Source: Acidimicrobiaceae bacterium
GTDB lineage: Bacteria; Actinomycetota; Acidimicrobiia; Acidimicrobiales; Ilumatobacteraceae
DNA: 54,678 bases
NCBI GenBank assembly: GCA_002698945.1
Contig: NZZV01000024.1
Span: 1 to 54,678, forward strand
Direction of reading: 5' to 3'
Positions 1,056-13,007 of this stretch are shown here, one piece after another. Under the pieces are notes generated by a model. That model saw nothing but the letters and a program-made list of their open reading frames with translations, ran no database searches and was not told the origin of the DNA. Every line of letters starts with the position of its first letter. Within the stretch, counting starts at the first letter, position 1. Made by a program: the position numbers and the translations under genes.

Positions 1056-4000
1056 TCACATCGCGCAGGCGACCCACGCCTCGGAGTCGAACACGTTGTC
1101 GCCGACGTCAAAGGGATGTCCCTCGGCGATGGTGGTCCCACCGCCGACCATGATGCTGAAGGCGTTGTAGTAGGAACCGGAGTCGTAGCCGGTGCCGATC
1201 TCGAAGCTGTCGAGGGGCCACGACAGCGGCACGGTGAGCACGAAAGCGCCATCCGAGAGGTCCGGGACGACCACTGTCGTCACGGCCCGGATACCACCGT
1301 CCGGATGCCGGGCGGTCAGCGTGGTGTCGAAGACCAACGGTCCCTCGGGCCACGGGCAACCCGTGCCGGTCGAGTATGCGGTCCCGGTCAGGGTGATCCA
1401 CGACTCGTCGTGGTCGAGGCTCCCGCTCTGGAACACGTCGTACAGCGACAACGACATCGGCAGGGCGAGTTCGGCAACGTCGAAACCGAGGTTGTAGGTC
1501 ACGCCGCTCTCGGGGAATGTGACGTCGAGCACGAGCACGTCGGCCGCGGTGGTGAAGGTGCCCTCGACGACGAAGGTCGACCCGTCGGGCTCGACCCGGG
1601 AATGCGTCACTGTTGCGCCGGCGTCGGTCAGCCCGTCGAACCCGGCGAGCTCGACCGCTCGCACGGCGAAGGTCGGGGTCTGGTCGAGACCCGTCAGGTC
1701 GAAGAATTCGCCGTCGATCGTGAAGTCGGGGGCGATCGTCGTCTGGTCGAAGTCGGTCCCGGTCGCGTCGGTGAAGCCCGGAGTGACGAGCGGGATCGCT
1801 GCCGCCGGCGCGGGGAACTGCGGCGTGACGACGATCTGATCGGCGCCCACGGGCAGGAAGATCTCCTGTTCGTAGCCGCCGTGCTCGTCGGTCGTGAGCT
1901 CGAAGGTGCCCGACTCCACCGTGTTACCACCGTCTGAGGTCACGTAGTCGAACGCAAGTCGCCGATCGGGAGTCGGCGTGCCGTTGTTGCTGACGGTGCC
2001 CTGCAGCAGGACGCTGGAGACCACGATCACCCACGTCGACTCGGTCGTCGTGCCGTGCACGGCCGCGGTCGTGTGGCTGATCGCATGTGTGTTGCCGCTC
2101 CCTCCGGTCGACAGCGTGAACGTCGCGGTGGTCGCGTCGGCGGGCAGCGTGATGTCGCGGACGAAGCTTCCGTCGGGCTGGACTGCCAAGTATACGTTGT
2201 CGGTCGCCACTACGTTCGAGTCGGCGTCCGTCGCGACCATCGACACGAGCCGACCCTGGCTCGAGGCTGCTCCTCGCTCTGTCAACGTGCCCACTACTTG
2301 GAGCCGGGTCTCGGCCTGGTCGTAGTCGACATCAGCGAACGTGTTCAGGCCTGGCGTCAGGCCCTCGAGCATCACTGGTTCACGGTCTCCGGGTTCGCCG
2401 ATCAGGAACTCGAGCCGGGCCGACGTCGAGTCGCTCGGCCCGACGGCCGTCAGCTCGTACTCACCGGTGATGCTGTCCCGATCGACATCGGCCGGCACTT
2501 CCACGTCACCGGCAGGGGTGATGAAAGAGACTCTGATCCCGAAGTACTGGTCGATGGGCTCGCCGTTCACCGTCATCGTCCCCGTCGCCCGGAGCACCGA
2601 GGACGCCGCGGCGGTGAAGTTCACCGTGTTGGCACCGGCAACGAGTTCGAACTCGTCGGTCTGCGTGTCGCTGTCGCCGCCGGGATCCCATGTGATCCGG
2701 AGGGCCGCAACGGTCGACGGATAGTGAAGCCGTGCGACGCGCAGCGTGCCCGATCCGTCGTCGGCCGCCGTCGCGCCTTCATCCCCGATGACGTCACCCT
2801 GTTCATCGAGCAGCTCGAGTACTAGGGGTGTCGCGGCGGTGACGATGCCACCCTCGTCGACAAGTTCGGCGGTGAGATCGACTGTCACCTCACCACCGAG
2901 TTCACCGCTGAAGTCCACCGGAACGATCCCGCCCACGATCTGTTCAGGATCGATGCTGCTGGTCCGGAACGCGGAGGGAACCGGTCCGGCTTCGAGGACG
3001 ATGTCGTACAGCTCGGCCGAGCGGGGGATGACGACGTTCGAGGTCGTGAAGATCGTGCCACTCGCGTTCACGACCGCATTCCCGGTCGCGGTGAACGATC
3101 TCTGCCCGAACGCCCCCTGGGACGTTCCTGTCGCCCGCACCGTGTAGGTGCCGGGATCGATCGGCTGTCCACCGCGGGTGATCGTGCCAACGGGTTCGGC
3201 CACGGTCGGGCTGTAGTCGTCGTCGAGACCGACGAGGTACGGACCGGCGGTGAGGTCGGTGAGCCGCACGTAGACACGGTCGAGTGCCTCGGGAACGACC
3301 CGGCTGATCGCGACCGAGGCGACGTTGGTCGGCACGGAGATAGTCGTGCCGAACCTGCCGTTCTCGTCGAGCGTGACGGTCGCCGTGCGTTCCGAGGTCG
3401 GCCCGGAGTTCAGATCGATGTGGTTGCCGGCGGCATCGCGACCCGAGACGGCGACGAGTTCGCTCCCCGTCGGGACGGCCCCGTCGGTGAGCAGGATGCC
3501 GGAGATCTGCAGGTCGACCATCTCGAATCCGAAGTCCCACGTCGGCTCGTTGATCCCGGGGACGAGTCCGGACAGCACCGTCGACGGGTAGTTCGGCTGG
3601 TACTCGCCGACGATGGCGGTGGCCACGACCGACGTGACGTCCTGGCCGAACTCGACGGCGACCTCGTAGACGCCGTCGATGACGCTGACGTTACGGCCCA
3701 CCGTCGTGCCGATGTCGGGATCCAAGTTGATCTGGGCGGAGCCGGTGTACGGCGCCCCGTTGCGCTCCACACGGCCCGACAGCACCACGACCGGTGCGGT
3801 CAGGTCGATCGGGAACGTCACGTCGTTCGGCCCGTTGACGAGCCCGTTCACGGTCACCTCCGGATTGTTCGGTGATCCGAGCAACGCGGTGACGGTGGCG
3901 TCGGTGGCTCCGCTCGCGAGGTGAACGGTCGCGGCGAACCGATCGTCGACGACGGGCACATTGTTGACATCGAACGGGCTGACGCCGTCGTCGACGCGGA

Positions 4001-7000
4001 ACGAGACCCGACTCGGGACCCGTTGCCCGGTCGCGGCGAAGGTGCCGACGAGGTCGAGTACCGGCGCGTCCATCACGACGTCGTAGGTGACCGCATAGGG
4101 GTACTCGAGCGTCGCGGGATCCGGGAGGTCGAGAACCACCGGGGCGCTGCGTCGGCTTCCGAGCGTGGTGTCCAACGACGCGGACGTGGCGTCGTCGGCA
4201 AGGTAGACGTAGTGCTCGTACGAGCCGTCCGAGTCGAGTTCGATCGGAGGTCGGGCCCACCAGTTCCCGTTGGGACCGGTTTGGCGCACGAACGTCCGCA
4301 ACTCGAGCGGCTCGCCACCGTTGTACCGCATGGTGCCGGTGAGGTCGAGCCGCCGCGGCGTCGCGTCGAGCACGATCGACCGATCGTTGACACCCGGGAC
4401 GAGGCCGACCAGCGACACCTCGGCGCCCGACTGGGTGCGGGCGATCACCTCGTCGACGTCGGGCGGGACGACGACGGGGACGCGACCGTCGTCACCGGGG
4501 AACGCGCCGCTGACCGGATCGAGCTGCAGACGCTGGGCGATATCGACGACGGTGACACCGGACGAGTCCTCGGCGAGCACTCGCAACGTCTCGTCGGTCC
4601 GGACGACTTCGCCATACTCGGTGATGACACCGTGCAGCGCCAGAACCCGGGTGTCGGACGCCCCGATCGAGAGGTTCGCGATCTCGGTGGCGGTCCGCGC
4701 GTAGCCGGCCACCTCGTCGAAGTGCACGGTCGTCGACGAGGCCGTCCCGTCGACGGCTACGTCGACGACGAACGGGAGGGCCGGGTCGTCGGCGTCGAGA
4801 TCGGGCAGCAGTTCGCAGGCGTAGTCGCCCGACGGGTTCACTACTGCCTCGCAGTCGGCGAAGCCGGGGCTGGAGACGACGACCGTCGAGCCGCTCGCGC
4901 CGAGCCCGAACGGATCGACCTGGACCGCACCTCGGATCAGGTACGAGCATCCGAATTCGGTCAGGTCGGACGGTTCACGGCCGATCGCCAACTCCATCGC
5001 GATCACGTTGACCGTGTAGCTGTCGGCCGAGTCGCTGGAGCAGCGCGCACCCAGCTGGTCGAGCAGCAGTCGGGCCTCGGCGCGGAACGGTTCGAGGAAC
5101 TCGCTGGCCGCCGGGGGCCGGTTCGGCTGGTCGAAGACCGGGTGGGGAACCGTGAAGGGCGAGTCGTCGAGGTCGGTGATCCGCCAGGAGTCGGTGAACC
5201 GGTACATGTCGATGTCGTGCTCGCGGACCACGTCCAGCGTGAGGAACTCATCGGTGTCGCGAACGAGGAACTCATCGGTCACATCGTCGTTGTTCGACCC
5301 GAAGAGACCCCGCATCGGTGTCGCTTCGTCCACGTCGAGACTCAGGTCGAAGAACGGTTCGTAGTTGCCGCAGCCCAGGCACCGACCGGGGTACGACTCC
5401 ATCGTCAGTTGCGGGGTCGCGACGGTGAGCCGTCCTCCACTGACCGTCACGTCGACGCCGCCCGTCAGGCGGTATGTTCCGCTCGTCGTCGGAACGTCGA
5501 CGCCGTCGATGATCACCCGCACGTCCGGACGACGATGATGCTCGATCACGTGGCCCTCGGCTTCGACCGCGAGCGAGATGTTGACCGTCAGCCAACCGGG
5601 AAGCCCCGTCTCGCTCGGCTTGTAGCTGTCGAACCGTCCGACGACACGGGTCGAACCGTCGCCGGTCTCGGCGTACACGTACTCGCCGACCACCATCGGG
5701 GAGTATCCGACCCCGTCGAAGGTCCCGAGGTGCGGCTCGCCCCTGCTGGTCGCCGGCCGCCGCTTGCAGGTCTTGTGCACCGGATCGCGTCCCGGCCGCT
5801 CCGAGAGGACCACCGTGATGCTGTCTTCGCCACGGTCGCCGGCGGTGACCGTGGCCGTTCTCGTCTCGCGGGGCAACGCCTCGATCCCAGGCGTCCCTCC
5901 ACACCGTGCGGGGATGACCGCCGCGACTCGGTCGTCGGCGGCCGACCGCACCGTGAACGTCTGCAGCTCGTCGGCAGGTTCGAGGCTCCCTGACTGATCC
6001 GGGTCGACGAACCCGGTCGCTTCCCACTGGACGTCAGCCGATCCAGCAGTCTCGACGGTGAACATCGCACCGGCGTCCACCTCGTCCTCGACGATGTCGA
6101 CGTGCTCGTCGGTGCAGTCGACCGACGGCAACATCGCCGCCGTGTCGGCACCGTCGACTCGCACGTCATAGATCGGATCGATGGGCGTGAGCTCGTCCGG
6201 ATCGACGTCCGGACAGATCAGGTGAACGTCGAGTTCGAGTTCCTCGGGCTCGTCGAGGGTGCCCTCGCCGAAGGTGCCCGTAGCCGGGGTGATGCTGATC
6301 GTGTACCCATCCGGAAGCGGTTCTCGGATCTCGAACGCCCACGTCTCGTCCTCGTAGCCGTACTGCGACATCGTGACTGTCGCGTCGGGGTGAAAACGGT
6401 TCAACACGGGGTCGGCCGGTGCGAGTTCGACGAGCCGATCGCACGTCAGCGCGAACTCGCCGGCCCACATCGGGAACGTCGGTCCGGCGGTGAACACCTC
6501 CTTCTCACCGATCAACCGGATCTTCTCGCCCTCGCGGAACTTCGAGCACAGTTCGGTGTCGACGGTGAACGACGACGACAGCTTCAGCCCGGCGACGGCC
6601 CAGAAGGTCGGGTTGCCGCTGCCGTTCGTCAGTTCGTCCCACGAGTCACCCGAACCGATGTACGCAGTCACGTCGTCGGGTTCGAAGTTGCCGCCGACCG
6701 CCGTCGACGGTGTCATCGTGGTCTCGACGAGCACGATGTCGCCGACGCCGACCTCGGCGGTTGGGCTGGCTGCGACGACGGGGTCGTCGGTGTCGACCGT
6801 GAGGGAGATGTTGCCGGCACCCGGCATCTCGATCAGCGGAAGCGTGCGCTCGGCCTCGTAGATCGTGAGGGGCAACGCCTGGATCGCGATCTGGAACACG
6901 GTTCGCAGGCTGTCGACCAGATCGTCGGTCACTCCGATCGCCAGCGCAGCCTTCGCCTCGGCCTTGGTGTCGGACTGCGGCGACGGCTTCCCGAAGATGT

Positions 7001-9536
7001 TGGCGGTGTTCTCGACGCCGAACGACAGCTTGGGGCCGATCGACATCTCGACCGCCGTGACCTTCCCGAGGTCAGGCCGCTGGAGCACCTTACCGAACGC
7101 CTTGCTGAAGGCGCCTCCGATTCGGGTGAAGGGCGTCGCCGTCAACGACACGCCGACCTCGGCTTCGCCACGGAGTGCGGGCCCCATGCCGGTGAACAGA
7201 TCGACGTCGGACGCGTTCAGGTTGCACATCTCCTCGAACGACTTCGTTCCGAGGTGCTCGGAAGTCGACCTGGTGGTGATCGCGCCGGAAGCGACGTCGC
7301 GGATCATCAGGAACTCGAGGCGAAAGCCGGCGTCGAGCTTGCAGCCGGGTTTCATCTCGAACTGAGGTCCGGCACTGGCCTTGAGCGCTGCCGCGATAGC
7401 GCCATCGACCTGGATGCCTGCCGTGACGACGGCGGAGATCGGATTGGGTGGCACCGGCTCGAAGTCGGCCAGTCGCACGCCGCAGCTGATCTCACCGATC
7501 GCGGTCGGTGTGAGCTTGAGCTCCGCCGTCAGATCGACCGTGAGCATGAATCCGAACTCGAAGTTGATGCTGTCGGACGGGTTGGATCCCCCGATCTCGA
7601 CGTCGATCCCGCGCCCGATGCGTTTGACGGTCGCCACGTTGTTCTTCGCCAGCTTGACTTCGCCGAGGGTCAGCGAGCCGCTGATGTCGCACGGTCCGGC
7701 CTCGATCTCGGGGAGCCGCTCCGTCGACCTGAAGCCGGTCGGCGCTGCCACGAGCTCATCGTCCACCTCGACCTCGACCGTCGTGTCGATGCCGAGGGCC
7801 TCGAGCTCGTCGAACGACATGCCGGTGTTCAGGATCGCGAACAAGTCGAACAGACTGGCGTGGGTGATGACGACCAGCGTCGCCCCGTTGCGCGTCTCGG
7901 TACGGACCACCTCACCCGAGATCGGCAACTCCCCGTACGACGCCACCAACGATCCCACCGCCGGCGCCGGGCCGCGCATGACGAACGAGTACTGGTCGAG
8001 CGCTCCCGACGAGTCATGGGCCACCGTCGCCAGCAGTTCGTCCCGGGTGAACGGAGCGGCATCCGCGAGCGTGCCGGTCGTCGATGGGAATGCGATGTCG
8101 TCGGGGTGGATGTCGATGACACCGTCGTTGAGCCGTGCGTTCGTGACCCAGAGCGGCCCGGCAGTGACACCCTCGACGTCGACCACGACGACGGTCTCAC
8201 CGGTACCCGATCCGCTGACGCCGACGATCGTGCCGTCGGGACGCAACTCGAGTTCGACATCTGCGGCGCCGCGGACGCGCAGCTCCGCCGAAGCCGGAAC
8301 GGCGCGACCGGTGCGCTGGCCGTTGGAACCGTAGTGCACCAACTGGGCGCGACGCTCCAGACCAGGAGCCGTGAACGTCAGTGCGCCTGGCACGATCTGC
8401 CAACCGGGCTCAGCCGTGTCGGGGATCGCGAATGTCGGGACCACGCCCGGTGGCGTCGCACCGCCGGCGGAGTCGTCAGTCGCTTCGCCGATGTAGCCGA
8501 CCACGTCGACCACCAGATGCGACTCCGCGAACGAGAACACACACACCCTCCCCCGCGACGACACCTTCGCGATCACCTCGTTCGCCACCACCGAACCAGC
8601 CACATAATTCAACGCCGACGCCCGCGGCGTCGACCCGCACGGAAACACCGTCAGATGCCCCGCACCCGACGGCGCCACCGCCGTCACGTTCAGCACCACC
8701 GCCGACACACCATCAGCCGGCACACCACCACGACCCAACACATCGACCGTCAACACCCCACCAGCCGCCACCGGCCCATCACCTTCGAACTCACCATCCA
8801 CCGTCACGTTGTTCACACCCGACCGCGAATCCACCAACCGCTCCGGAGACAACGACACCACACCACCACCACCAGCAGCAGCAGCACCGACATCAACCGT
8901 CCCGGCCGAGCCGTCGGTGACGTAGCCGACCACGTCCACCACCAGATGCGACTCCGCGAACGAGAACACACACACCCTCCCCCGCGACGACACCTTCGCG
9001 ATCACCTCGTTCGCCACCACCGAACCAGCCACATAGTTCAACGACGACGACTGCGGCGTCGACCCACAGGGAAACACCGAAAGATGCCCCGCAGCAGACG
9101 GCGCCACCGCCGTCACGTTCAACACCACCGCCGACACACCATCAGCAGGCACACCACCACGCCCCAACACATCGACCGTCAACACCCCACCAGCCGCCAC
9201 CCGACCAACACCTTCGAACTCACCATCCACCGTCACGTTGTTCACACCCGACCGCGAATCCACCAACCGCTCCGGAGACAACGACACCACACCACCAGCC
9301 ACATCCGTGCGACCGGCCACCTCGACCGACTCGACCGGCTCGCTGGACACGGTGACGTCGGTCGCCGCTGCAACCGGATCGACGACGTCGGTCGACTGCT
9401 GCGGCTCCGACACGTCGGAGGTCGCCGCCTGGACGCCGGCGCCGAACGCCAACACGGACGGTATCGCCAGCGATGCTGCGATCGTGACCGCACACGCCGT
9501 CCGACATCGCCCGATGATCAACTTCCGACCCGCCAC
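1056..9536 (-). CDS. giant secreted multidomain protein with VWD-like domain and C-terminal beta-repeats
   Basis: About 2,826 aa, starting at a GTG with GGAGG 4 nt upstream. Upstream in-frame ATGs lie in the divergent promoter region and are rejected. Residues 1-37 form a Sec signal peptide. Residues about 80-205 and 224-348 are two nearly identical copies of a beta-rich domain found in actinobacterial secreted proteins (PERLVDSRSG start, HLVVDVVGY end). Around residues 1265-1460 is a von Willebrand type D-like module (GEPHLGTFDG, later GLFGSNNDDVTDEF). From about residue 1725 to the end, roughly eleven units of about 100 residues each begin with a strand of type LxGTxxxNGxP, resembling carboxypeptidase-regulatory/prealbumin-like folds. 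There is no LPXTG motif or C-terminal membrane anchor. A surface or adhesive/matrix role is inferred; no enzyme domain was recognised. Confidence 0.85.
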   Translation of the reverse strand: MAGRKLIIGRCRTACAVTIAASLAIPSVLAFGAGVQAATSDVSEPQQSTDVVDPVAAATDVTVSSEPVESVEVAGRTDVAGGVVSLSPERLVDSRSGVNNVTVDGEFEGVGRVAAGGVLTVDVLGRGGVPADGVSAVVLNVTAVAPSAAGHLSVFPCGSTPQSSSLNYVAGSVVANEVIAKVSSRGRVCVFSFAESHLVVDVVGYVTDGSAGTVDVGAAAAGGGGVVSLSPERLVDSRSGVNNVTVDGEFEGDGPVAAGGVLTVDVLGRGGVPADGVSAVVLNVTAVAPSGAGHLTVFPCGSTPRASALNYVAGSVVANEVIAKVSSRGRVCVFSFAESHLVVDVVGYIGEATDDSAGGATPPGVVPTFAIPDTAEPGWQIVPGALTFTAPGLERRAQLVHYGSNGQRTGRAVPASAELRVRGAADVELELRPDGTIVGVSGSGTGETVVVVDVEGVTAGPLWVTNARLNDGVIDIHPDDIAFPSTTGTLADAAPFTRDELLATVAHDSSGALDQYSFVMRGPAPAVGSLVASYGELPISGEVVRTETRNGATLVVITHASLFDLFAILNTGMSFDELEALGIDTTVEVEVDDELVAAPTGFRSTERLPEIEAGPCDISGSLTLGEVKLAKNNVATVKRIGRGIDVEIGGSNPSDSINFEFGFMLTVDLTAELKLTPTAIGEISCGVRLADFEPVPPNPISAVVTAGIQVDGAIAAALKASAGPQFEMKPGCKLDAGFRLEFLMIRDVASGAITTRSTSEHLGTKSFEEMCNLNASDVDLFTGMGPALRGEAEVGVSLTATPFTRIGGAFSKAFGKVLQRPDLGKVTAVEMSIGPKLSFGVENTANIFGKPSPQSDTKAEAKAALAIGVTDDLVDSLRTVFQIAIQALPLTIYEAERTLPLIEMPGAGNISLTVDTDDPVVAASPTAEVGVGDIVLVETTMTPSTAVGGNFEPDDVTAYIGSGDSWDELTNGSGNPTFWAVAGLKLSSSFTVDTELCSKFREGEKIRLIGEKEVFTAGPTFPMWAGEFALTCDRLVELAPADPVLNRFHPDATVTMSQYGYEDETWAFEIREPLPDGYTISITPATGTFGEGTLDEPEELELDVHLICPDVDPDELTPIDPIYDVRVDGADTAAMLPSVDCTDEHVDIVEDEVDAGAMFTVETAGSADVQWEATGFVDPDQSGSLEPADELQTFTVRSAADDRVAAVIPARCGGTPGIEALPRETRTATVTAGDRGEDSITVVLSERPGRDPVHKTCKRRPATSRGEPHLGTFDGVGYSPMVVGEYVYAETGDGSTRVVGRFDSYKPSETGLPGWLTVNISLAVEAEGHVIEHHRRPDVRVIIDGVDVPTTSGTYRLTGGVDVTVSGGRLTVATPQLTMESYPGRCLGCGNYEPFFDLSLDVDEATPMRGLFGSNNDDVTDEFLVRDTDEFLTLDVVREHDIDMYRFTDSWRITDLDDSPFTVPHPVFDQPNRPPAASEFLEPFRAEARLLLDQLGARCSSDSADSYTVNVIAMELAIGREPSDLTEFGCSYLIRGAVQVDPFGLGASGSTVVVSSPGFADCEAVVNPSGDYACELLPDLDADDPALPFVVDVAVDGTASSTTVHFDEVAGYARTATEIANLSIGASDTRVLALHGVITEYGEVVRTDETLRVLAEDSSGVTVVDIAQRLQLDPVSGAFPGDDGRVPVVVPPDVDEVIARTQSGAEVSLVGLVPGVNDRSIVLDATPRRLDLTGTMRYNGGEPLELRTFVRQTGPNGNWWARPPIELDSDGSYEHYVYLADDATSASLDTTLGSRRSAPVVLDLPDPATLEYPYAVTYDVVMDAPVLDLVGTFAATGQRVPSRVSFRVDDGVSPFDVNNVPVVDDRFAATVHLASGATDATVTALLGSPNNPEVTVNGLVNGPNDVTFPIDLTAPVVVLSGRVERNGAPYTGSAQINLDPDIGTTVGRNVSVIDGVYEVAVEFGQDVTSVVATAIVGEYQPNYPSTVLSGLVPGINEPTWDFGFEMVDLQISGILLTDGAVPTGSELVAVSGRDAAGNHIDLNSGPTSERTATVTLDENGRFGTTISVPTNVASVAISRVVPEALDRVYVRLTDLTAGPYLVGLDDDYSPTVAEPVGTITRGGQPIDPGTYTVRATGTSQGAFGQRSFTATGNAVVNASGTIFTTSNVVIPRSAELYDIVLEAGPVPSAFRTSSIDPEQIVGGIVPVDFSGELGGEVTVDLTAELVDEGGIVTAATPLVLELLDEQGDVIGDEGATAADDGSGTLRVARLHYPSTVAALRITWDPGGDSDTQTDEFELVAGANTVNFTAAASSVLRATGTMTVNGEPIDQYFGIRVSFITPAGDVEVPADVDRDSITGEYELTAVGPSDSTSARLEFLIGEPGDREPVMLEGLTPGLNTFADVDYDQAETRLQVVGTLTERGAASSQGRLVSMVATDADSNVVATDNVYLAVQPDGSFVRDITLPADATTATFTLSTGGSGNTHAISHTTAAVHGTTTESTWVIVVSSVLLQGTVSNNGTPTPDRRLAFDYVTSDGGNTVESGTFELTTDEHGGYEQEIFLPVGADQIVVTPQFPAPAAAIPLVTPGFTDATGTDFDQTTIAPDFTIDGEFFDLTGLDQTPTFAVRAVELAGFDGLTDAGATVTHSRVEPDGSTFVVEGTFTTAADVLVLDVTFPESGVTYNLGFDVAELALPMSLSLYDVFQSGSLDHDESWITLTGTAYSTGTGCPWPEGPLVFDTTLTARHPDGGIRAVTTVVVPDLSDGAFVLTVPLSWPLDSFEIGTGYDSGSYYNAFSIMVGGGTTIAEGHPFDVGDNVFDSEAWVACAM
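8493..8867. repeat. 375-bp in-gene direct repeat, copy A
   Basis: It encodes the second N-terminal beta-domain of the giant secreted protein. It matches copy B (8922-9296) almost base for base at a constant 429-bp (143-codon) offset, so the array stays in frame. The few differences are mostly single bases, which suggests recent duplication or ongoing gene conversion. Confidence 0.95.
8922..9296. repeat. 375-bp in-gene direct repeat, copy B
   Basis: It encodes the first N-terminal beta-domain of the giant secreted protein. It is the partner of copy A and is separated from it by a 54-bp low-complexity Ala/Gly linker coding segment. Confidence 0.95.
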
Positions 9537-9540
9537 GGAT

Positions 9541-9545
9541 CCTCC
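9541..9545 (-). promoter_or_regulatory. ribosome-binding site of the giant secreted protein gene
   Basis: A perfect GGAGG on the minus strand, 4 nt upstream of the GTG at 9536. It decides the start codon and implies a leader of about 130 nt from the proposed promoter. Confidence 0.75.
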
Positions 9546-9675
9546 AAACTGCCGGCGGTACGACCGCACTCGCCGACAGCTCGCCGGTGACCCGGCGGGC
9601 ATCCGGTCCGCGCCCGTACCTGATGAATGACGACCCGAGCGGCACGCACATGTCGGACGGATCGATGTCGCCGAC

Positions 9676-9707
9676 ACCATACGAAGGCGCGGTAACAGCG
9701 CGGTAAC
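9676..9707 (-). promoter_or_regulatory. candidate SARP activation site: two GTTACCG heptamers, 8 bp from a TATGGT -10
   Basis: On the minus strand GTTACCG occurs twice with a 4-bp spacer (plus-strand CGGTAAC at 9690-9696 and 9701-9707), an exact 11-bp period. The downstream copy ends 8 bp before TATGGT (9676-9681), the presumed -10 of the giant gene. SARP regulators such as AfsR bind 11-bp-spaced direct heptamers whose last copy lies 8 bp from the -10, so the geometry matches. A weaker third unit may lie at 9708-9718. The divergent gene encodes a SARP protein. Confidence 0.65.
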
Positions 9708-9754
9708 AGCGTTGTCGGGGGCGCGGTGGGAGGGGTCGGCGCGGGTGAACCATC

Positions 9755-9760
9755 TACCAT
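9755..9760 (+). promoter_or_regulatory. -10 box, leaderless promoter of the SARP regulator gene
   Basis: TACCAT lies 7 nt before the GTG at 9768 with no Shine-Dalgarno sequence nearby. It supports this GTG over the upstream in-frame GTG at 9726. Confidence 0.5.
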
Positions 9761-9767
9761 CGTCGAT

Positions 9768-12700
9768 GTGCGGGAAGAGCGAGGTCGGACGACGCGGTGG
9801 CGCGTCGGGGTGCGCGGGCCGACCGTCGTCGTCGGCGAGACGGGTGAGGTCGCCTTGCGACCGAAGGAACGAGCCGTCGTCGCCGCTCTCGCCGCACTCC
9901 ACCCGGAGGCAGCGACGACGTCACGGCTGATCGAGCTGGTGTGGGGCGACGATGCGCCCTCGTCGGCGACCAAGTCCCTCCACAACCACGTGTCGCGCGT
10001 CCGACGCAGCGCCCCGGGCCTGATCGCCGCCGACGACCGCGGCTATCGCCTCGGTGCCCGCGTCGACATCGACGTCGCCGCTCCCGGGTCCGGGCCCGGG
10101 GCGCGCCCGCTGGCCGATCTGGCCGATACGACCGACACCGACATCTACCGCGAGCGGCTCCGGACGCTCGCCGCCGACCACGACGAAGTCGCGCTCGACG
10201 AGTTGGCCACGACCGCGCGGACACCGGAGACGGTCGAGGTGCTCCATCGGGCCGTCGTCGAGGAGCCCTATCGCGAGCGCCGCTGGTGGCTGCTCGCCCG
10301 AGCTCAGGCGGACGCCGGCCAGCGACGTGACGCGTTGCTCACCCTCGACGCCGCCCGTCGTCAGCTCAGGGAGGTCGGCCTCGAACCCGGTCCGCCGCTG
10401 GTCGAGCTCGAACACTCGATTCTGCACGGCGATCCGACCGAGGAGCTGCCTTCGCTCCGGGTGCACGTGTCGATCCATCCCCACCGCGACGACCCGTTCG
10501 TCGGTCGGGCGACCGAACTCGAGACGCTCGCACGTATCTGGCAGCGCACGCGCGACGAGGCACGACCGCATGTCGTGCTCGTCACCGGGCCGGCCGGCAT
10601 CGGCAAGACCCGACTCGTCGACGAGTTCTGCCGTCGCGTCGAGGTCGACGACCATCAACTGCGGGTGATGTGGGGACGACACCGGCGCGACGGCGGGCGT
10701 GCCCTCGGGGCCCTCACCGAAGCGATCGAACGGGCCGTCGCGAGCGAACCCGACGTGCTGCCGTCCGACGACGCACTCCGCCTGCTGTTCGGCAGCGGGC
10801 AACCCGAGGGCGATCTCGACAGCGCACTCGTCCGGACCCGTCTGGGTCGCGCGCTCACCCGCCTCGTCGACCGCCTTGCGTCGCGACCGACCGTCTGGCT
10901 CTTCGATGATGCCCAATGGGCCTCGACGGATTCGATCGCGCTGCTCCACGAGGCGCTCGACGGTGCCACCGGGCCGCTGCTCGTGGTGGCGACGATGCGA
11001 CCCGACCGCGACGACGGAGCGCCCACCTTCGGCGAGATCGGCCGAACCGTCGGCTTGAGCGAGGTGCGACTCGATCCGTTCGGGCGTGACGACATCGGCC
11101 GCCTGGTCGCGGCACGCCTGACGGATCAGCTCGACGACATCAACGTCGATCTGTTGCATCATCGCACCGGTGGCCTACCGCTCTATGCGAGTGAGCTGAC
11201 CCGGGCCGCGGCGGCGACCGGTCGGATCGACCTGGCAGACGTTCCGGCGGCGATTCGAGAGTGGCTGAACCATCGCGTGTCGACCCTCGACGACGACCTC
11301 GCCACCCTGTTACGCGTCGCCTCGGTGATCGGGCAGTCGGTCGAACTCGACGTCGTGACCGAAGCGACCGGCCGCGCCAGCGTCGACACCGCCGCCGGGC
11401 TCGACGAGCTGGTCGCTCGAGGATTCCTCGTCGTCGACGCGGACTCGTCGACGGCGTCGTTCTCGCACGCACTCACCCGGGAGATCGTGACCGACTCGAT
11501 CGGCCCGATGGCCCGCCGCCAGACGCACCTCGCTGTCGCTGAGGCCCTCGTCACCGTCCGTCCGAACGAGCACGCCGACATCGCACGCCACTTCGATCTG
11601 GCGTCCGACCGGCGAGCGCACGCCCACGCGATGATCGCCGGCTCGCGCGGCCTCGCCGTCGGCGCGTGGACACACGCCAGAGATCTGTTCCGCGTCGCCG
11701 TCCGAACCGCCGACACGCACGCTGAACGCGCACGCGCCCTCGTCGGGCTCGGACGAGCCGAGCTCTGCGCCGGCAACGCGACCACGGCGAGCGACGATCT
11801 GCTCGCTGCGGTCGACCTCGCCCGCCGGCACGATGATCCGATCGTGCACGCCCGGGCGGTGTTGCACCTCGTGGGACGCGCCGGGCGCGGCGCTATCGGC
11901 GGCGACGACGGCCTGCGACTGCAGCTGCTCCGCGCCGCGGTGGACCACGTCGTCCGCCACGAGGACGTCGATCCGGTCCTCGACGCATTGCACTGCGACC
12001 TCGAGCGAGAACTGGCGATTGCGATGCTGCTCACCGATCAGCACGAGGCCCGCAACCAGCTGCTCCGCTCGGCGGTCGAACGCGCAGAGCGGCTCGACCC
12101 TCCCGACATCTCCACCCATGCCCACGCGCTCCTCGCGTACCGGTATGCCCGCCTCGGGCCGCTCGAGCTGCCTGACCGCCTGGCGGACCTCGACCGGATC
12201 GCGCAGTTCCCCGAGCACCGTCTCGATCCCGAAGCCCGCATCGCCGCACAGGTGTACCGATGCGAAGACCTGATCCGATCCAATCGACCGGAGGACGCGC
12301 GTCGGGCGCTCGCCGACGCCGGCACGATCCTGTCGCAATATCCGGACCCGTACTGGATCTGGGCGGTGCGGACCTGGGACGCCGTGCTCGACCTGATCGC
12401 CGGCGACGCCGACCGTGCCGACGCCCGCTCCGCCGCCGCGCTCGCCGAGCGCACCTCGTTCGTCGAGGCGCACATCTGCCGTGCGGTCAATCTCGTGGCG
12501 ATCCGTCTGCATCAGGGACGGGGCGGCGAGGTGCTCGACGTGCTGCGCTCGGCGGTCGACACCCAGCCTCACATCCCCACGTTCCGTGCCGTCCTCGCCC
12601 TGTGCGCCGCGGAGGCGGGCGACGACCGGCTCGCCGGCGAGCAGCTCCACTGGTTCACCGACGCCGGTGTCGACAACCTGCCCGTCGACACGAACCGGTT

Positions 12701-13007
12701 CCTCGGGCTGAACGTGCTGGGCCACGCGGCGACGCGGCTCGACGACCGATCGGCTGCCGGCGTGCTGTTCCCCCTCGTCGAGCCCTACGACCGTCAGTGG
12801 GTCGTCCTCAGCTGCTTCGGCGGCGGTGGTGCGACATGGGGGCCGGTGTCGCTCACCCTGGCCGGGTTGTCCGCGACGCTCGGTCACGACGTCTCGGCCC
12901 GGTCGTACCTCGAACGAGCGGCGACCGAGGCTCGCCACGCCCCGCTGATCGGCCCCCGCATCGCGGCGCTGGCCGCAGGCCTGTCGCGTTCGACGGCGGA
13001 ACGCTGA
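9768..13007 (+). CDS. SARP/AfsR-type transcriptional activator with NTPase and TPR-like regions
   Basis: About 1,079 residues. Residues 10-95 are an OmpR-like winged helix (RLIELVWGDDAPSSATKSL, then HNHVSRVRR), and residues about 120-220 a BTAD helical domain ending in LREVGLEPGPPLVELE. An AAA/STAND ATPase starts at FVGRATELETL (about 243), with Walker A GPAGIGKT (about 274) and a Walker B-like VWLFDDAQW (about 375). The last 500 residues are helical and TPR-like, with no LuxR helix-turn-helix. SARPs activate secondary-metabolite or secreted-product genes by binding direct repeats upstream of weak promoters. The divergent partner is the giant secreted-protein gene, whose promoter carries such a repeat. 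A start at 9726 would add 14 residues. Confidence 0.88.
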   Translation: MREERGRTTRWRVGVRGPTVVVGETGEVALRPKERAVVAALAALHPEAATTSRLIELVWGDDAPSSATKSLHNHVSRVRRSAPGLIAADDRGYRLGARVDIDVAAPGSGPGARPLADLADTTDTDIYRERLRTLAADHDEVALDELATTARTPETVEVLHRAVVEEPYRERRWWLLARAQADAGQRRDALLTLDAARRQLREVGLEPGPPLVELEHSILHGDPTEELPSLRVHVSIHPHRDDPFVGRATELETLARIWQRTRDEARPHVVLVTGPAGIGKTRLVDEFCRRVEVDDHQLRVMWGRHRRDGGRALGALTEAIERAVASEPDVLPSDDALRLLFGSGQPEGDLDSALVRTRLGRALTRLVDRLASRPTVWLFDDAQWASTDSIALLHEALDGATGPLLVVATMRPDRDDGAPTFGEIGRTVGLSEVRLDPFGRDDIGRLVAARLTDQLDDINVDLLHHRTGGLPLYASELTRAAAATGRIDLADVPAAIREWLNHRVSTLDDDLATLLRVASVIGQSVELDVVTEATGRASVDTAAGLDELVARGFLVVDADSSTASFSHALTREIVTDSIGPMARRQTHLAVAEALVTVRPNEHADIARHFDLASDRRAHAHAMIAGSRGLAVGAWTHARDLFRVAVRTADTHAERARALVGLGRAELCAGNATTASDDLLAAVDLARRHDDPIVHARAVLHLVGRAGRGAIGGDDGLRLQLLRAAVDHVVRHEDVDPVLDALHCDLERELAIAMLLTDQHEARNQLLRSAVERAERLDPPDISTHAHALLAYRYARLGPLELPDRLADLDRIAQFPEHRLDPEARIAAQVYRCEDLIRSNRPEDARRALADAGTILSQYPDPYWIWAVRTWDAVLDLIAGDADRADARSAAALAERTSFVEAHICRAVNLVAIRLHQGRGGEVLDVLRSAVDTQPHIPTFRAVLALCAAEAGDDRLAGEQLHWFTDAGVDNLPVDTNRFLGLNVLGHAATRLDDRSAAGVLFPLVEPYDRQWVVLSCFGGGGATWGPVSLTLAGLSATLGHDVSARSYLERAATEARHAPLIGPRIAALAAGLSRSTAER

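Follow-up and report, generated by a model that had tools for sequence, protein, structure and literature searches.

Two genes diverge from a short intergenic region in the genome of an Acidimicrobiaceae bacterium (contig NZZV01000024.1), one encoding a giant secreted protein and the other a SARP-type regulator, and a pair of direct repeats lies between them. The question raised by this locus is whether the repeats form an activation site for the giant gene and, if so, whether the neighboring SARP would act there. To our knowledge, SARPs have been studied almost exclusively as switches of antibiotic clusters. The window, i.e., the whole stretch of DNA that was analysed, comprises 54,678 nucleotides, and its relevant features are as follows.

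9768..13007, plus strand: large SARP gene, GTG start, 1,079 aa; winged helix, BTAD and AAA_16/STAND-type ATPase
9795..10061, plus strand: DNA-binding domain of the SARP, residues 10–98, with recognition helix KSLHNHVSRVRR
9755..9760, plus strand: TACCAT, presumed -10 of the SARP transcript, 7 nt before the GTG at 9768
9710–9700 and 9699–9689, minus strand: the box, in which the 11-mer GCTGTTACCGC occurs twice in tandem without mismatch
9681–9676, minus strand: TATGGT, presumed -10 of the giant gene, 8 bp (9689–9682) after the second heptamer
9536..1056, minus strand: giant secreted-protein gene, GTG start, 2,826 aa, with GGAGG at 9545–9541
8910..9290, minus strand: first copy of a beta module in the giant protein, about 125 aa
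8484..8861, minus strand: second copy of the beta module in the giant protein (profile)

Repeats upstream of the giant gene

The sequence-only reading had described the heptamer GTTACCG as occurring twice at an 11-bp period, with the last copy 8 bp before TATGGT. Both statements are exact; the heptamers lie inside the box at 9707–9701 and 9696–9690 on the minus strand, and the 8-bp gap was confirmed. The perfectly repeated unit is, however, the 11-mer GCTGTTACCGC, which is longer than the heptamer first noted. SARP operators have been described as 11-bp repeats located 8 bp from the -10 (PMC10936776), and the box has direct repeats at the 11-bp period, one of the two (11 or 22 bp) that typify these operators. 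From the presumed -10, transcription of the giant gene would start near 9669. The pattern GTTACCG-N4-GTTACCG has one match in the window and none in 100 dinucleotide shuffles, and the composite pattern GTTACC-N5-GTTACC-N9-TANNNT likewise has a single match in the window, even when up to two mismatches are allowed, and none in shuffles. Neither a sigma-70-like promoter nor a terminator was found at the box site.

The divergent regulator and the giant protein

The product of the divergent gene had been proposed to be a SARP with winged-helix, BTAD and ATPase domains, an assignment borne out by Pfam domains above cut-off: Trans_reg_C (28.7 bits; cut-off 26.2), BTAD (44.9 bits; cut-off 22.1) and, in the C-terminal part, AAA_16 (76.9 bits, above cut-off), where the TPR families gave no Pfam score. 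The order characteristic of the SARP family, an OmpR-type winged helix followed by BTAD, was found both with Pfam and in the AlphaFold model of residues 1–225 (pLDDT 92), whose best fold matches are the AfsR complexes 8hvr and 8k60 and EmbR. Comparison with the NCBIfam model SARPRegAfsRStmc gave 41.6 bits against a cut-off of 1430; the protein is AfsR-like in architecture and is not AfsR itself. The SARP mRNA is probably leaderless, because TACCAT lies 7 nt before the GTG codon and the spacing TACNAT-N7-GTG found in the own genome (G000) is kept in two congeners (G001 and G004). A search of plasmids for relatives of the SARP found none. The five neighboring proteins of the window that were scanned comprise an acetyl-CoA-synthetase-like AMP-binding enzyme, a 5'-nucleotidase, a LuxR-type regulator and two without a match.

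The giant protein begins with a signal peptide (by inspection) and contains at residues 1265–1427 a weak VWD-like stretch, just below the Pfam cut-off. Its beta module is an all-beta unit of about 125 aa which has no name in Pfam or NCBIfam and is common in large secreted proteins. The eight Ilumatobacteraceae genomes that were searched hold from 28 to at least 150 copies each. Comparison of the module with Pfam gave nothing convincing, one member matching DUF2807 with an E value of 0.25. The AlphaFold model of the module (pLDDT 91) resembles fibre tips and carbohydrate-binding folds weakly (TM about 0.4–0.5), and because this resemblance is weak no function was assigned to it.

Conservation of the box in relatives

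Those loci for which an organism name is available assign the group to Ilumatobacter/Ilumatobacteraceae. Two genomes of the same genus (G001 and G004) encode SARPs with 58–59% identity to that of the window, in both cases still divergent from a beta-module protein. Conservation of the repeat and the 8-bp gap in orthologous pairs, which the sequence-only reading had named as support for its proposal, was found between the SARP and giant genes of both these congeners. In G021, the box lies upstream of the ortholog of the giant gene, which now adjoins a gene resembling panB (by inspection), with the SARP ortholog about 49 kb away. The same stretch of G021 encodes a second SARP (29% identity), whose recognition helix also carries Asn-His. 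Three targets were checked in this genome: the -10 is shifted by one base at one, absent at another, and at the third, which is the ortholog of a PKD target described below, the box is degraded. In G062, from another family of the order, the sole strict site lies between a SARP gene (32% identity) and the next gene, which encodes a putative lipoprotein. In FR_3, an Acidimicrobiia bin, CTGTGACC-GA-TCTGTTACC, followed by CATACT, lies between a SARP gene and a divergent gene for a secreted, propeller-like protein, one half-site of this box being altered. The SARP of G002 has 48% identity, yet this genome has no box at up to two mismatches. The gaps directly upstream of the SARP orthologs of G002, G005, G009 and G021 contain no box.

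Since the box of the window is situated in the gap shared by the SARP and giant genes, it might serve mainly for autoregulation of the SARP, the giant gene being incidental. The distance from the box to the SARP start varies (77, 62 and 50 nt in G000, G001 and G004, respectively), whereas that to the -10 of the giant gene is fixed, and most boxes are located away from any SARP and upstream of secreted-protein genes. These observations make autoregulation as the main role very improbable.

Box sites elsewhere in the genome

The genome-wide scans were pattern searches. In the own genome, GTTACC-N5-GTTACC-N9-TANNNT has four exact sites, i.e., that of the window and those at C20:4424, C81:4987 and C223:16763. 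The reversed pattern, used as control, has no match in this genome and one match across 397 genomes of the order, compared with the four exact sites in the own genome alone. All four sites are upstream of genes for secreted proteins, their signal peptides being recognized by inspection. The other three targets encode a 3,251-aa protein with FG-GAP, carboxypeptidase-regulatory and fn3 domains, a PKD protein (1,637 aa or more), and a propeller-like protein interrupted by the contig end. The results from profile scoring indicate that the beta module is present in the giant protein and in the C20 and C81 products; the C223 product has what appear to be the first 25 or so residues of the module before the contig ends. 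Many other beta-module genes have no box, which, like the box-less G002, the box-less upstream gaps and the irregular sites of G021, counts against the proposed role of the SARP.

The proposed control of a huge secreted protein by the SARP is supported at the giant gene, but the notion of a single target did not stand, because the box precedes secreted-protein genes at no fewer than four places here and at five in G001. The SARP thus probably runs a small regulon of secreted proteins. Targets of the box are loosely clustered, no further than about 10–50 kb from the SARP, in three genomes (G001:C1 954–978 kb, G009:C1 4033–4047 kb and G021:C1 865–918 kb).

A chance repeat or a dispersed element with no regulatory role might also produce recurrent copies, and a different repeat, GTTACCACGGCGTTACCACG, is indeed dispersed near tRNA-like sequence in the own genome and in G003. 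However, shuffled and reversed controls gave almost no matches, the -10 register of the boxes is fixed, and the sequences that flank the box sites of the own genome are otherwise unrelated, which renders this explanation extremely unlikely. The GTTACCACGGCGTTACCACG copies (L007, L008 and L028 on contig C4 of the own genome, and L091 in G003) are box-like and lack the -10 register. Treating all GTTACC-N5-GTTACC matches as one class was rejected, and the C4 and G003 copies of GTTACCACGGCGTTACCACG, together with the matches inside coding sequence in G079 and G281, were set aside because they either lack the -10 register or are inside genes. Palindromic GTTACC/GGTAAC matches were also set aside. 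Near-palindromic sites of this kind occur in the own genome at C17:5815, C43:20090, C100:406, C158:5496 and C210:6247, and are possibly the operator of another regulator.

Promoter register and co-occurrence with the SARP

Boxes in 100 relatives were picked by the repeat alone (GCTGTTACCNNGCTGTTACC, at most two mismatches), and a score of over 600 bits was taken to identify a clear SARP ortholog. Among the 17 boxes of genomes with such an ortholog, NANNNT starts exactly 9 nt after GTTACC in 14, the same register as in the window, with 8 bp between the 3' repeat and the -10, and the stricter TANNNT is found at this position in nine. Either motif occurs at most once at any other offset between 0 and 24. 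None of the seven matches in genomes lacking the SARP ortholog is in this register. The nominal binomial p of about 1e-20 for the register overstates independence, because some of the box sites are orthologous. Boxes are present in six of the seven genomes with a SARP ortholog and in eight of the 93 others (Fisher p=1.6e-5), and the matches in the latter, with the exception of G062, are not upstream of secreted-protein genes. The targets in relatives belong to several unrelated gene families, and no genome without the SARP yielded an ortholog of the giant protein or of the PKD target. Because the box recurs before large secreted proteins mainly where the SARP is present, the SARP most likely runs a secreted-protein program. 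The sequence-only reading of the site as SARP-type is thus supported both by conservation of the box and by its co-occurrence with the SARP ortholog across the 100 genomes.

The box might instead be bound by another regulator with an OmpR fold, above all one resembling MtrA or PhoP, the SARP being a mere neighbor. MtrA is worth considering because the consensus for S. coelicolor, [GT]T[GA]ACC-N5-GT[GT]AC, is one position from the box (PMC5650626). The MtrA operator similarly consists of two short direct repeats of near-identical half-site with 5-nt spacing (PMC5650626), the own genome holds MtrA-family regulators, and cell-wall genes belong to the mycobacterial MtrA regulon (PMC6265350). In contrast to the box, MtrA sites have no fixed 8-bp register to the -10; that of bldD overlaps the -10, and the two at whiI are at different distances from the start. 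The fixed 8-bp gap is a hallmark of SARPs (PMC10936776), and the box is next to a SARP in three lineages with differing gene neighbors. Each of the 16 genomes tested, even where the box is missing, has MtrA-like regulators, none of which reach the NCBIfam cut-off; the distribution of boxes follows the SARP ortholog and not the MtrA homologues. Since MtrA-like regulators are in every tested genome and boxes are not, MtrA or PhoP was rejected as the main binder, and we consider binding by any such regulator unlikely. Conversely, a secreted-protein regulon under control of the SARP is probable, because the box tracks the SARP and MtrA-like regulators occur everywhere tested.

Recognition of the box and comparison with known systems

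In the AfsR complex there are two base-specific contacts per repeat: the first T of GTT is contacted by Arg92, and the base pair that follows GTT by Thr88 (PMC10936776). AfsR recognizes the repeat CGTT(T/C)ATCGNN (PMC10972967), and the base after GTT in the box of the window is A. Asn73 of the SARP aligns with Thr88 of AfsR, and Arg77 with Arg92. The Asn, which occurs in all box-bearing lineages, is invariant in the nine aligned SARP homologues, G062 included, and the Arg is kept in the box-bearing lineages. The SARP of G002 also has the Asn despite the missing box, and three more distant SARPs that lack a box have Thr or Ser at this position. From this alignment we infer that Asn73 may read the A of the box.

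The closest known system is AfsR/afsS of Streptomyces coelicolor, with which the locus shares the domain order of SARP followed by ATPase, the best fold match, and a pair of 11-bp direct repeats across the -35 region, the 3' copy lying 8 bp from the -10. In afsS, the -10 is CACTGT and the repeats extend from -40 to -19 (PMC10936776). The differences concern the repeat unit (TGTTACCNNGC versus CGTT(T/C)ATCGNN), the Asn in place of Thr, and the targets, which are secreted proteins here and not afsS. Regulators of the PimR type (SARP-LAL) share the heptamer with a 4-nt spacer and the SARP-ATPase layout (PMC5930380), but the main PimR operator has three CGGCAAG heptamers which do not overlap the -35, and the gene under its control is the regulator of an antifungal cluster. 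Mycobacterium tuberculosis EmbR, the second-best fold match, shares the SARP fold and differs in having FHA where the SARP has an ATPase domain. Its reported influence is on genes for secretion, virulence and lipids, and not on an antibiotic cluster (PMC9239209).

Proposed mode of action

With high confidence we regard the site as a predicted SARP-type activation box, and the neighboring SARP is its most likely regulator. A pair of SARP N-terminal domains would occupy the adjoining 11-bp repeats, which overlap the -35 region of a promoter devoid of a -35 consensus. RNA polymerase would thereby be brought to the -10 located 8 bp downstream, in the manner of AfsR at afsS. At copies of the box elsewhere in the genome, the SARP would act in trans and so control a small set of large secreted proteins, many with the common beta module. 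The SARP would bind the box and activate rather than repress; its ATPase part may sense a signal, and the targets may have a surface or adhesion role. The best explanation for the repeat, and quite probably the correct one, is that of an operator of a SARP-class activator, the neighboring SARP acting on a secreted-protein regulon.

The activation mechanism is already known, being AfsR-like, and it is the changed specificity and the target class that are new. Searches of the literature found no papers linking Ilumatobacter with SARP and secreted, or the SARP family with extracellular matrix. We consider it fairly likely that, in the Ilumatobacteraceae and some other Acidimicrobiia, a dedicated SARP (Asn for Thr), together with a box changed to match, serves a dispersed regulon outside antibiotic clusters, whose giant secreted proteins are probably attached to the surface. 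If so, an AfsR-type mechanism would serve the cell surface in a little-studied actinobacterial class. With one amino acid and one base pair changed in concert, the way in which SARPs read DNA could be tested directly, and the box would help to show when these bacteria make use of the largest proteins they secrete.
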